Shown one piece after another: positions 15,797-19,315 of a stretch of DNA of 33,172 bases (its first letter is position 1; each line of letters starts with the position of its first letter). The position numbers and the translations under genes are program-made. Under the pieces are notes generated by a model. The model was not told the origin of the DNA. It saw nothing but the letters and a program-made list of their open reading frames with translations, and made no database searches. This stretch comes from an uncultured Bacilli bacterium (GTDB lineage: Bacteria; Bacillota_I; Bacilli_A; RF39; UBA660), in contig CANQXW010000011.1 in assembly GCA_947627925.1 (NCBI GenBank), positions 1 to 33,172 on the forward strand. The letters run 5' to 3'.

Positions 15797-16555
15797 TTAA
15801 TTATAAACTAAATTATTATCTACTTTTAAACGATCTGCTAAAGTTGTAATATATTCAGCATTTGTTGGTTTATCTCGATTTACGTTTAAACTATTACCAA
15901 AAATGCTTTCCATCAAATTTATATCACCCCTATTCCAACTTATCTCGATCGCATGCCGAATGGCTCTTTCTACTCTCGTTGGCGTAGTATGATATTTATG
16001 GGCAATTTGCGGATAAATATCTTTGGTAATATACGCAATAGAATTTTTTTCTTTATAAACCATTAAGACTCCATCTTTAATAAATTGATAACCTCTAATA
16101 TGAGATGGTATTCCTAAATTGTGAAGCATATCTGTAACAATAGCTTCTTGATTAAATAATTTGTTTTGACTATTAGCCTTAAAATTAACATTTAAAATTC
16201 TCTTTTCTAAACTAAGAAAATTCAATGGCTTTAACATGTAATAGTCAACTCCATAAGAATTGGCTTCCTCTAGAATATTTTCTTCTTTAAAAGAAGTAGT
16301 AATAATAATATTCTTTTTAATTTCTCTTTTTTCTAGTTCGCTTAAAATATATAAGCCATCTAGTCTTGGTAGAATTAAGTCCATGACAATTACATCTATA
16401 TTGTTATCATTATTTAAGATGTAATCTAAACCCTCTTCTCCATCATTTTTACAAGCTACTACTTTAATTACTTCATGACTACGGAAATACTTCTCGATGT
16501 CTTTAGTTAATGAAGCATTGCTATCAATAACTAAAACATTAACGTTAGTTTTCAC
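15797..16555 (-). CDS. spo0A: Sporulation master regulator Spo0A
   Basis: Receiver domain (VIVMDLILPRLDGL) plus the characteristic C-terminal domain GIPSHIRGYQF..TPTRVERAIRHAIEISWNRGDINLMESIFG..KPTNAEYITTLADRL. Confidence 0.96.
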   Translation of the reverse strand: MKTNVNVLVIDSNASLTKDIEKYFRSHEVIKVVACKNDGEEGLDYILNNDNNIDVIVMDLILPRLDGLYILSELEKREIKKNIIITTSFKEENILEEANSYGVDYYMLKPLNFLSLEKRILNVNFKANSQNKLFNQEAIVTDMLHNLGIPSHIRGYQFIKDGVLMVYKEKNSIAYITKDIYPQIAHKYHTTPTRVERAIRHAIEISWNRGDINLMESIFGNSLNVNRDKPTNAEYITTLADRLKVDNNLVYN

Positions 16556-16733: not shown

Positions 16734-16751
16734 AATGGCGAAAAAGCCATT
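16734..16751 (-). terminator. Intrinsic terminator of pgk
   Basis: Minus strand AATGGC-TTTTTC-GCCATTTTTT; stem overlaps the pgk stop codon. Confidence 0.75.
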
Positions 16752-17913
16752 AGTTTTGAATCTCATTTTCCATAATAAATTCTAGAGCTTTAAGTTTGCC
16801 ATCAGCCACATATTCTAAAGTAGCACCCCCACCACTAGAAACATAGGCAAATTTATCTTTGTAGTTAAATTTAGCTACTGCTGAAGCGGTATCGCCACCT
16901 CCAACAAAAACTTTGGCCTCACTCTTACTAAGAGTATCGAAAAGATTTTTCGTTCCTTTCGTATATTCTTCTCTTTCATATAGGCCAGGAGTACCGTTTA
17001 AGAAAATAACTTTAGCCGATTCTACTACTTCTTTAACTTTATCATTAATAATATTATCATAAATAATATCATTATCTTTTATATCATGAATATCAACTTC
17101 TAGATTATTATTTCCTCTTTTTACCGTAAACATGGAGCTAAAAACTATTTTAGAAGCGCTTTCTGTTATAATTTTTTTCACACTTTCTAAAACTTCTTCA
17201 TCACTACTAGCTAAACTATCCCCAATAGGATATTTCATAACTTTTAAGAAAGTATTTAAAATGCCTCCCGTTAAAATTAATTTATCACATTTTTTTAGCA
17301 TGCCTTCAATTATTTTTATTTTATCATCTACTTTAGCTCCGCCCATTATAACTACAAAAGGGTAATCATCATTATCGATTAAGGGTTTTAAGCTTTCAAT
17401 TTCTTTTTCCACTAAAAAGCCTAAAAAGGTCGGCAAATATTTAGAAATACCCGCAGTTGAAGAATGAGCACGATGTAAAGAGGCAAAAGCATCAATCACA
17501 AAAGCATCAGCAAAACTAGCCCAATATTTTGCCAGCTCTAAATCATTAGCGCTTTCTCTTTTTTCTGGTACATCAGTGTATCTCGTATTTTCCACTAAAA
17601 ATAACTTTTTAGAACTATTATTTACAACAGTTAAATCTAAAGGATTACTAATAAATTCTAAATCAAAATATTTCTTTAAATATTCATAAACTATTTTTAA
17701 ACTATTTTTAGTTTTATCTTCTTCGCCCTTTACTCTACCAAAATGACTCAATAAAATAACCCTATTATTATTCTTTAATAAATAATTAATCGTATCTAAA
17801 CTTTTAGTTATTTTACTATCGTCACATATGTTACCATCTTTAATTGGTACGTTAAAATCACATCTTAATAATACTTTCTTATTTTCAATTTTTTCTTTAC
17901 TTAAATATTTCAT
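16750..17913 (-). CDS. pgk: Phosphoglycerate kinase
   Basis: KKVLLRCDFNVPIKDG..LLSHFGRVKG..VIMGGAKVDDKI..VGGGDTASAV. Confidence 0.97.
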   Translation of the reverse strand: MKYLSKEKIENKKVLLRCDFNVPIKDGNICDDSKITKSLDTINYLLKNNNRVILLSHFGRVKGEEDKTKNSLKIVYEYLKKYFDLEFISNPLDLTVVNNSSKKLFLVENTRYTDVPEKRESANDLELAKYWASFADAFVIDAFASLHRAHSSTAGISKYLPTFLGFLVEKEIESLKPLIDNDDYPFVVIMGGAKVDDKIKIIEGMLKKCDKLILTGGILNTFLKVMKYPIGDSLASSDEEVLESVKKIITESASKIVFSSMFTVKRGNNNLEVDIHDIKDNDIIYDNIINDKVKEVVESAKVIFLNGTPGLYEREEYTKGTKNLFDTLSKSEAKVFVGGGDTASAVAKFNYKDKFAYVSSGGGATLEYVADGKLKALEFIMENEIQN

Positions 17914-17944
17914 AATTAACTCCTATTGTCTTTCTATTAATTTC

Positions 17945-17973
17945 TTGTATTATTTACGATATTGTAATATAAT
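17945..17973 (+). promoter_or_regulatory. Consensus sigma-A promoter driving a + strand antisense RNA
   Basis: TTGTAT (17945-17950), 17-nt spacer, TATAAT (17968-17973). Confidence 0.7.
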
Positions 17974-17979
17974 ATGTAT

Positions 17980-18065
17980 AGGAAGCGTGAATTCACGCCG
18001 CCTACTTATCGTAGTTGACGTTATCTAAATAATATTTCTATTATTTGGACGACGTCTTTTATTTT
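17980..18065 (+). ncRNA. Candidate antisense RNA (type I antitoxin-like), about 80-85 nt
   Basis: Starts about 7 nt after the TATAAT; contains GCGTG-AATT-CACGC and CTAC-TTATC-GTAG hairpins and ends in an intrinsic terminator; fully overlaps the 3' part of the minus-strand 38-aa ORF. Confidence 0.6.
18017..18065 (+). terminator. Intrinsic terminator of the candidate antisense RNA
   Basis: GACGTTATCTAAATAATA-TTTC-TATTATTTGGACGACGTC (one A:C mismatch, two G:U) followed by TTTTATTTT. Confidence 0.75.
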
Positions 18066-18137
18066 ATCCACTAACATAGTTAGTAGTAAAAGTAAAATAA
18101 TTAAAACTAATACTCTCGTTAGATTTCTTAATTTCAA
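18021..18137 (-). CDS. Small hydrophobic peptide, candidate type I toxin (38 aa, TTG start)
   Basis: (M)KLRNLTRVLVLIILLLLLTMLVDKIKDVVQIIEILFR*; SD AGGAGGTGAGG 9 nt upstream; absent from the ORF track because of length. Confidence 0.65.
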   Translation of the reverse strand: MKLRNLTRVLVLIILLLLLTMLVDKIKDVVQIIEILFR

Positions 18138-18213
18138 ATAGCCTCACCTCCTTAACCAGAGATTCCCCCTGAAATTTGGTTTTGGCGGCGTCTTTCACTC
18201 ATCCTATATTTTC

Positions 18214-18242
18214 ATTTAAACACAATGTTATCTACTTGTAAA
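18214..18242 (-). promoter_or_regulatory. Candidate promoter of the small-peptide mRNA
   Basis: Minus strand TTTACA (18237-18242), 17-nt spacer, TTAAAT (18214-18219). Confidence 0.4.
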
Positions 18243-18266
18243 GAAAAATATGCGGACATTATAAAA

Positions 18267-18284
18267 GAAGTTATTGCTAACTTC
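18267..18284 (-). terminator. Intrinsic terminator of gapA
   Basis: Minus strand GAAGTTA-GCAA-TAACTTC then TTTTATAA. Confidence 0.75.
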
Positions 18285-18310: not shown

Positions 18311-19315
18311 TTACTTAAACATACATTTTGCCGTTCTAAGCATTTGAGCAGTATATCCTAATTCATTATCATACCAAGCTACTATTTTATAAAGTTTTTG
18401 CCCATTTACTTCCACCACATTAGTAAGAAGACCATCGACTAAAGCGCCAACTCTTTTACCAATTATATCACTAGAAACAATTGGATCTTTAGTAAATTTT
18501 AAAGCCTCACTTTGATGGGTCACAAAAGTATTATTAATTTCATCAACGGATGGACTACTTTTTAACTCTAAAGTAACATCAATTAAAGAACCATCGGGAA
18601 CGGGTACTCGGTAAGCAAGACCATCAAGTCTTCCTTCCAGTTCAGGGATAACTTTACCAATGGCTGAGGCAGCCCCCGTTGAAGCGGGAATTATATTTTG
18701 ACTAGAAGCTCTTCCACGTCTAGCATATATTCCTTTTTTATGAGTAATATCTAAAGTTACTTGATCATTCGTAAAAGCATGTACAGTACTCATGAATCCT
18801 TTTTCAATACCATAAGCATCATTAATAACTTTTAAAACGGGGGCTAAACAATTAGTCGTACAACTCGCCGCTGAAACAATGTCTTCACTACCATCAAGAA
18901 TCCCTTCATTAACCCCATAAACTACCGTTTTCATATTACCTTTACCAGGTGCCGAAATTAAAACTTTTTTAGCTCCCGCTGTAATATGCTTTCTAGCATC
19001 TTCTTCTTTCGTAAATGCTCCCGTACATTCTAAAACTAAATCAACATTTAAATCTTTCCATGGCAAATTCAAAGGTTCTCTTTCCGCATAAACTTTAATT
19101 CTTTTGGTATTAGCAATTACCAAAGTATCGCCTTCAAAAGTTATCTCAGATTCATGGAAAGACCGATGAACTGTATCATATTTAAGTAAATGACATAACT
19201 CTTCCGCATTGGAAGTATCATTGATAGCCACAATATCAAAAGCACTATCCGTAATCATTTCCCTAAAAGCAATTCTTCCAATTCTTCCAAAACCATTAAT
19301 CGCAACTCTAATCAT
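18311..19315 (-). CDS. gapA: Glyceraldehyde-3-phosphate dehydrogenase
   Basis: VAINGFGRIGR..SAASCTTNCLAPV..WYDNELGYTAQML. Confidence 0.97.
   Translation of the reverse strand: MIRVAINGFGRIGRIAFREMITDSAFDIVAINDTSNAEELCHLLKYDTVHRSFHESEITFEGDTLVIANTKRIKVYAEREPLNLPWKDLNVDLVLECTGAFTKEEDARKHITAGAKKVLISAPGKGNMKTVVYGVNEGILDGSEDIVSAASCTTNCLAPVLKVINDAYGIEKGFMSTVHAFTNDQVTLDITHKKGIYARRGRASSQNIIPASTGAASAIGKVIPELEGRLDGLAYRVPVPDGSLIDVTLELKSSPSVDEINNTFVTHQSEALKFTKDPIVSSDIIGKRVGALVDGLLTNVVEVNGQKLYKIVAWYDNELGYTAQMLRTAKCMFK

Follow-up and report, generated by a model that had tools for sequence, protein, structure and literature searches.

We found a small unit of two predicted convergent RNAs between gapA and pgk of an uncultured gut bacterium of the Bacilli, and, as judged from the sequence of the unit and those of its relatives, it is very likely a type I toxin-antitoxin unit. 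The 38-aa membrane peptide encoded by this unit is very probably the toxin, a judgement based on the resemblance of the unit to known systems. The window, that is, the whole stretch of 33,172 nucleotides that was analyzed, forms contig 11 of a draft genome (1.16 Mb, 88% complete). The unit lies between gapA (18311-19315, minus strand) and pgk (16750-17913, minus strand), where the intergenic gap is 397 nt. We computed the anatomy, conservation, covariation, 5'-3' complementarity and loop variability of the unit. A first-pass annotation of this DNA had proposed a type I layout, with convergent genes overlapping at their 3' ends as in Gram-positive systems, and our results support this proposal. 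Three features were absent from that annotation: the toxin promoter, the pairing between the 5' and 3' ends of the mRNA, and the hypervariability of one antisense hairpin. The features are as follows.

17945-17973, plus strand: antisense promoter TTGTAT-17-TATAAT (TTGTAT 17945-17950; TATAAT 17968-17973), with a conserved -10 box.
17980-18062, plus strand: predicted antisense RNA and antitoxin candidate, about 82 nt with three hairpins, indicated by covariation and genus-wide matches to a covariance model.
17980-18002, minus strand: 3' arm of the mRNA end pairing, complementary to the 5' end of the antisense RNA, predicted from duplex energy and folding.
17985-17998, plus strand: antisense hairpin 1, GCGTGAATTCACGC, five pairs, each with compensatory changes.
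18002-18014, plus strand: antisense hairpin 2, CTACTTATCGTAG, hypervariable among paralogues.
18017-18065, plus strand: antisense hairpin 3 with a T-run, an intrinsic terminator within the toxin ORF, seven pairs, each with compensatory changes.
18024-18137, minus strand: toxin-candidate ORF, MKLRNLTRVLVLIILLLLLTMLVDKIKDVVQIIEILFR, 38 codons with a TTG start (stop codon 18021-18023), a conserved family with a coding substitution pattern.
18142-18152, minus strand: Shine-Dalgarno (SD) sequence AGGAGGTGAGG, conserved in the family alignment.
18164-18171, minus strand: CAGGGGG motif within the 5' UTR, conserved across the family.
18184-18205, minus strand: 5' arm of the mRNA end pairing, predicted from duplex energy and folding.
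18214-18242, minus strand: toxin promoter TTTACA-17-TTAAAT (TTTACA 18242-18237; TTAAAT 18219-18214), conserved across copies.
18249-18260, minus strand: upstream element AATGTCCGCATA, 12 bp, 6 bp before the toxin -35 box, common to 12 other small-RNA units of the genome.
18263-18284, minus strand: candidate gapA terminator hairpin with a T-run, seen in the sequence and also 5' of the unit in a relative (G001).

The 38-aa ORF with its TTG start and strong SD sequence, already recognized in the first-pass annotation, is present on the minus strand (18137-18021, with the SD sequence at 18152-18142). The peptide has a basic N-terminus and a single hydrophobic membrane-spanning stretch, and the family consensus is MKxKTLNKFLLxIILLLLxxIL....KDV. 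Over 72 copies, the best 17-residue hydropathy of the core was 3.17 and the charge of the N-terminus was +2.7 on average. When the intergenic region was shuffled with its dinucleotides kept, none of 2000 shuffles had an SD-preceded ORF of 28-60 aa whose core was as hydrophobic. The earlier reading depended on the peptide frame being conserved, and this was borne out by 75 homologous ORFs with a start codon (ATG in 63, GTG in 9 and TTG in 3). Their substitutions fell on codon positions 1, 2 and 3 in proportions of 37, 15 and 48% (417 pairs; 5' two-thirds of the ORF), and the length of the peptide varied across the family by whole codons. A dN/dS-like ratio was 0.38 in the true frame and 0.40 in another frame, that is, this ratio is not unique to the true frame. 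Judged from its substitution pattern, the ORF is under coding constraint; the antisense RNA, judged from its covariation, is constrained as well.

The toxin promoter is also conserved, with TTTACA as the -35 box in 52 of 68 copies and a 17-nt spacer in 58 of 68. The mRNA is predicted to start near 18206 and to be about 227 nt long; no clear intrinsic terminator was found for it. The CAGGGGG motif (18164-18171, minus strand) is strongly conserved in the middle of the 5' UTR, on the 5' side of the SD sequence, and is perhaps a ribosome standby site.

The plus-strand promoter TTGTAT-17-TATAAT, also claimed earlier, is present at 17945-17973. Across 72 copies, the -10 box was TATACT or TATAAT in 69, the -35 box began with TTG in 54, and the spacer was 17 nt in 55. 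The predicted RNA contains the two small hairpins (17985-17998 and 18002-18014) and the long stem-loop (18017-18056) with a T-rich end that had been described before. The stem of this terminator is followed by TTTTATTTT, and the T-run occurs on the antisense strand only, so that the terminator is one-directional. The antisense RNA had been said to oppose the last third of the ORF and the 3' UTR. It is fully complementary to the 3' UTR and to the last 12 codons of the toxin candidate, about 40 nt of it lying opposite the ORF. This convergent layout with 3' overlap is present in all aligned copies. A consensus scanner listed neither the antisense promoter nor the terminator within its limits (9 of 12 promoter matches; short terminator loops), and the case for both thus rests on conservation.

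The structure of the antisense RNA was examined from its covariation. Compensatory double changes were seen in all 12 modelled base pairs, which belong to the two alignable hairpins, 1 and 3. Of the alignment cells, 93.5% were paired; shuffles gave 82.7%, and sliding the structure along the alignment left no more than 57%. The covariation score was 0.451, as against 0.256 in shuffles, and none of 500 shuffles reached the observed score.

The toxin mRNA appears to close on itself. Its first 24 nt or so are complementary to about 24 nt ending at the start point of the antisense RNA. The mean energy of this 5'-3' duplex was -28.3 kcal/mol over 68 copies, compared with -10.9 when one arm was shuffled and -22.4 when the arms were swapped between loci. 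Since each unit pairs more strongly with its own arm than with a swapped one, both arms change together. The closure was predicted for 66 of 68 full-length mRNAs, and the folding energy of the minus-strand RNA was -80.5 kcal/mol, compared with -53.1 in shuffles (z = -5.85). A consequence of the closure pairing is that the 5' ends of the toxin mRNA and the antisense RNA look alike. In Helicobacter pylori, the 5'-3' closure of aapA mRNAs blocks translation until the 3' end is trimmed (PMC6733600).

We also considered the SD sequence in these folds. Its mean predicted accessibility did not fall on closure but was slightly higher in the closed form (0.35 versus 0.25), the window's own unit showing the opposite trend. 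When the 3' arm was removed, the freed 5' arm paired with the SD sequence in about one-fourth of the ensemble, a behavior from which the window's own unit deviates. The complementarity between the 5' arm and the SD sequence was -12.0, compared with -9.7 for shuffled and -11.2 for swapped arms, that is, little above the controls. We offer an SD switch operated by the freed 5' arm as a hypothesis derived from these folding models.

Searches with the peptide in related genomes and with a covariance model of the plus-strand RNA, both proposed in the first-pass annotation, gave a family of considerable size. Among 60 genomes, the window's own included, the DNA search and the peptide search each matched 19, all in the same genus and many with more than one match. 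The 69 loci examined gave 79 homologous ORFs, from 18 relatives and the window, and the start codon was recognizable in the 75 described above. Because the 40 rows of the peptide alignment varied too much to find related loci, a 9-row subset was used for that search. With the covariance model, about 130 antisense RNAs were detected. They are spread over 23 of the 38 genomes sampled from the genus, a single genome having as many as 14; these copy numbers are lower bounds because the genomes are drafts. No match to the RNA model was found in other genera (246 genomes of the family, 150 genera; filters stricter than within the genus). Outside the genus, the peptide profile had three marginal matches, each in a different genus (E from 2e-4 to 6e-4), and these were taken as chance. 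Tandem units were also seen, e.g., at L056, L062, L072, L112 and L115. No relative of the unit was found in phage, plasmid and viral collections.

In an independent check, 44 matches to the RNA model were examined in 40 regions that had been chosen by means of this model. About 24 of them had an intact peptide ORF at the expected position, and the others had mostly a C-terminal or truncated remnant of the peptide. Loci would be expected to decay in this way, losing the toxin and keeping the antisense RNA, if the peptide harms the cell and the RNA protects it. RNase III is encoded in 34 of the 38 genomes of the genus, and was not found in the window's own 88%-complete genome. We did not adopt a loss of this enzyme, since the other genomes of the genus mostly carry it; the missing gene is possibly an assembly gap.

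As for the site itself, six relatives have gapA directly before pgk with a gap of 68-88 nt and without the unit (L143, L146, L149, L163, L165 and L169). Most simply, the unit was gained at this site. The gapA terminator had been regarded as the upstream boundary of the unit. The hairpin (18284-18267) does exist, but the same one stands before the unit in G001, and there the ORF found upstream of it is not gapA. No clear promoter of pgk itself was seen between the unit and that gene (17914-18020 of the window, minus strand), and pgk may thus need read-through, either of gapA transcripts or of those begun at the toxin promoter.

The three hairpins of the antisense RNA differ in their conservation. 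In pairs of paralogues within a genome that were about 95% identical in hairpins 1 and 3, hairpin 2 was 62% identical, random pairs giving 55%. Hairpin 2 was shared in only one of 56 such pairs. From this sequence pattern, hairpin 2 is perhaps a tag by which paralogues are recognized and kept specific. Its identity between genomes (61%) is like that within genomes, so that diversifying selection is not separable from relaxed constraint in this comparison. In the par systems, poorly conserved interaction sites have been proposed to keep paralogues apart (PMC7472228).

The element upstream of the toxin promoter links the unit to other small RNAs of the genome. There are 12 exact copies of AATGTCCGCATA in the genome and none of the reversed control. 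At the 12 exact sites and at one site with one mismatch, the element stands exactly 6 bp before a -35 box, and what follows is always a small-RNA-like unit (the window; L170-L181, L183). These 13 units are the toxin-antitoxin unit, four units of a second family, seven hairpin RNAs of about 85 nt, and one more. The element may be where a single regulator of the toxin-antitoxin unit and the other small RNAs binds. Other upstream elements are found at the toxin promoter in many relatives.

The second family is also toxin-like (L170, L171, L177 and L178, around 1500-1840 on the strand of the element). It encodes hydrophobic peptides of 26-30 aa, e.g., MNKKDFIILFLFIIIYSLIRIIFQLV, on predicted transcripts of about 230 nt with an end pairing of -33 to -37 kcal/mol. 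The RNA of about 85 nt, GAAAAGGGCCGGTCGTGGCGCGTGTAGGGTATA..., is multicopy and partly tandem, with a strong hairpin and a T-run at its end (L172-L175, L179, L180 and L183); it had no Rfam match in the scanned loci. At L181, around 1500, a further unannotated candidate transcript, GTTAACATGGTTGTATCCC..., lies under the element, and no Rfam match was found there.

In many relatives (G003, G004, G010, G021, G022, G023, G027 and G035), TGTCGAA, the known Spo0A box, stands just upstream of the toxin -35 box; it is absent from this position in the window genome. On the far side of pgk, this small genome has a gene for Spo0A itself (TIGR02875, 225 bits; 15797-16555 of the window, minus strand), which is kept in 36 of the 38 genomes of the genus. 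Common control of the units by Spo0A is not supported, because the window genome uses AATGTCCGCATA in place of TGTCGAA although the DNA-binding helix of its Spo0A is unchanged.

The unit may work as follows. The minus-strand promoter would give the mRNA for the membrane peptide, and the consensus-like promoter on the plus strand would give the three-hairpin antisense RNA, which ends inside the toxin gene. The full-length mRNA would close its 5' end on its 3' end and so become stable, with folding as the control of its translation. The antisense RNA would recognize its own mRNA, probably through hairpin 2, pair with the 3' region and displace the 5' arm. The duplex would then be destroyed by RNase III, or translation would be blocked, or both, and no toxin would be made. 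If the supply of antisense RNA stopped, leftover mRNA would be translated and the peptide would damage the membrane. A more detailed model, which we regard as possible but doubtful, is that the antitoxin RNA mimics the 5' end of the mRNA and competes for the 3' arm, and that the 5' arm, once released, pairs with the SD sequence; the antitoxin would then flip a switch in the mRNA rather than just trigger its cleavage. In this model, hairpin 2 would separate the paralogues, and the units, the second toxin-like family and the other small RNAs would be under one regulator acting 6 bp from the -35 box.

Other explanations should be considered. The same RNA architecture could control a membrane peptide with a job other than poisoning, such as a regulator of membrane stress, a signalling peptide or a phage-exclusion peptide. 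The case for the unit is made by architecture and conservation, with toxicity drawn from resemblance; moreover, the units are chromosomal, and the sharing of the window unit's upstream element with other small-RNA units suggests regulated use. Loci that keep the antisense RNA and have lost the peptide are nevertheless common, and the characterized short hydrophobic peptides of Gram-positive bacteria with 3'-overlapping antisense RNAs are toxins (PMC4147584), so we consider this alternative improbable.

The position directly 5' of pgk, both in the window and in G001, and the lack of an obvious separate pgk promoter after the unit could suggest a cis-regulatory leader, with the 38-aa ORF as leader peptide and the folded RNA as attenuator. 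However, other copies adjoin many unrelated genes in both orientations, which excludes a leader as the general function; six relatives have the short gapA-pgk gap without the unit, and the conserved terminator is directed away from pgk. Such a leader is very hard to credit. A miniature mobile element, bounded by the paired arms as its terminal inverted repeats and with an incidental ORF, seems to us just as remote. It is true that the copies are multiple, scattered, in part tandem and often at contig ends, and that the two arms form an imperfect inverted repeat. But conservation extends past both arms through the promoters, which indicates that the arms are not the ends of an element, and the coding substitution bias of the ORF and the compensatory changes in the RNA also speak against it. 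We therefore prefer the type I toxin-antitoxin unit to these explanations.

Finally, we compared the unit with known systems. A profile search with the peptide against Pfam, NCBIfam, PADLOC and PHROGs had no match that rose above noise, the best PHROG match being an unnamed family with E = 0.02. Compared in this way with the TxpA/BsrG-type toxins, six members of the family likewise matched no curated profile of Pfam or NCBIfam above noise, and Rfam had no match to the antisense RNA or the unit. The earlier remark that the peptide was not recognizable as one of the txpA, bsrG or fst families holds, since neither the peptide nor the RNA has a name in any of these libraries. Because sequence membership was not found in the profile libraries, we place the unit in a family of its own, as a variant among the type I systems and outside the named families. 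The literature searched, which takes in few of the subscription journals, and the profile libraries describe no such type I family, and none for this uncultured lineage of Bacilli.

The unit resembles txpA/RatA and bsrG/SR4 of Bacillus subtilis in its convergent genes, its short hydrophobic toxin candidate, its independent antisense promoter, and the overlap of the antisense RNA with the 3' end of the toxin mRNA; this overlap is about 75 and 120 nt in those systems (PMC4147584) and about 80 nt in the new unit. In contrast, neither the new peptide nor the RNA has a detectable sequence relation to them, and only in the new unit does the antisense terminator fall within the toxin ORF and do the ends of the mRNA pair over about 24 nt. 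Whereas the txpA and bsrG loci lie in prophage-like elements, the new unit has no phage, viral or plasmid match.

With the par system, Fst-RNA II, the unit shares a toxin mRNA of about 230 nt, a membrane toxin (Fst, 33 aa), a convergent antisense RNA and a sequestered 5' end of the mRNA (PMC7472228). The antisense RNA, however, is about 40 nt in par and about 82 nt in the new unit. The Fst/Ldr superfamily also differs in having a PXXXG motif in the membrane helix and a conserved Trp after the helix, before the charged C-terminus, both of which the new peptide lacks in the 40-row alignment. Moreover, the new unit has no shared bidirectional terminator, its T-run being on the antisense strand only, and no direct repeats DRa/DRb, its arms being inverted repeats.

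The unit also resembles aapA/IsoA of Helicobacter and hok/sok in the long-distance 5'-3' interaction that closes the full-length toxin mRNA and in its several chromosomal copies. The sizes are similar as well: the aapA3 mRNA is 225 nt and IsoA3 is 80 nt (PMC6733600), compared with about 227 and 82 nt here. The difference is that, in the new unit, the 3' arm of the closure is itself the antisense target and the SD sequence is outside the closure; the new peptide has no profile match to any named toxin. Ibs/Sib of Escherichia coli is likewise a multicopy chromosomal type I family of short hydrophobic peptides (PMC4147584), but Sib covers the entire ORF and the ribosome binding site, whereas the new antisense RNA covers only the 3' third.

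Thus, the new family joins the 5'-3' mRNA closure of the hok/aapA type with the 3'-overlapping antisense RNA of the Gram-positive type. With about 130 copies in one genus, having near-identical scaffolds and one hypervariable hairpin each, it is a natural experiment on how many antisense pairs can coexist without crosstalk in one cell, and also on which of the two, toxin or antitoxin, decays first.
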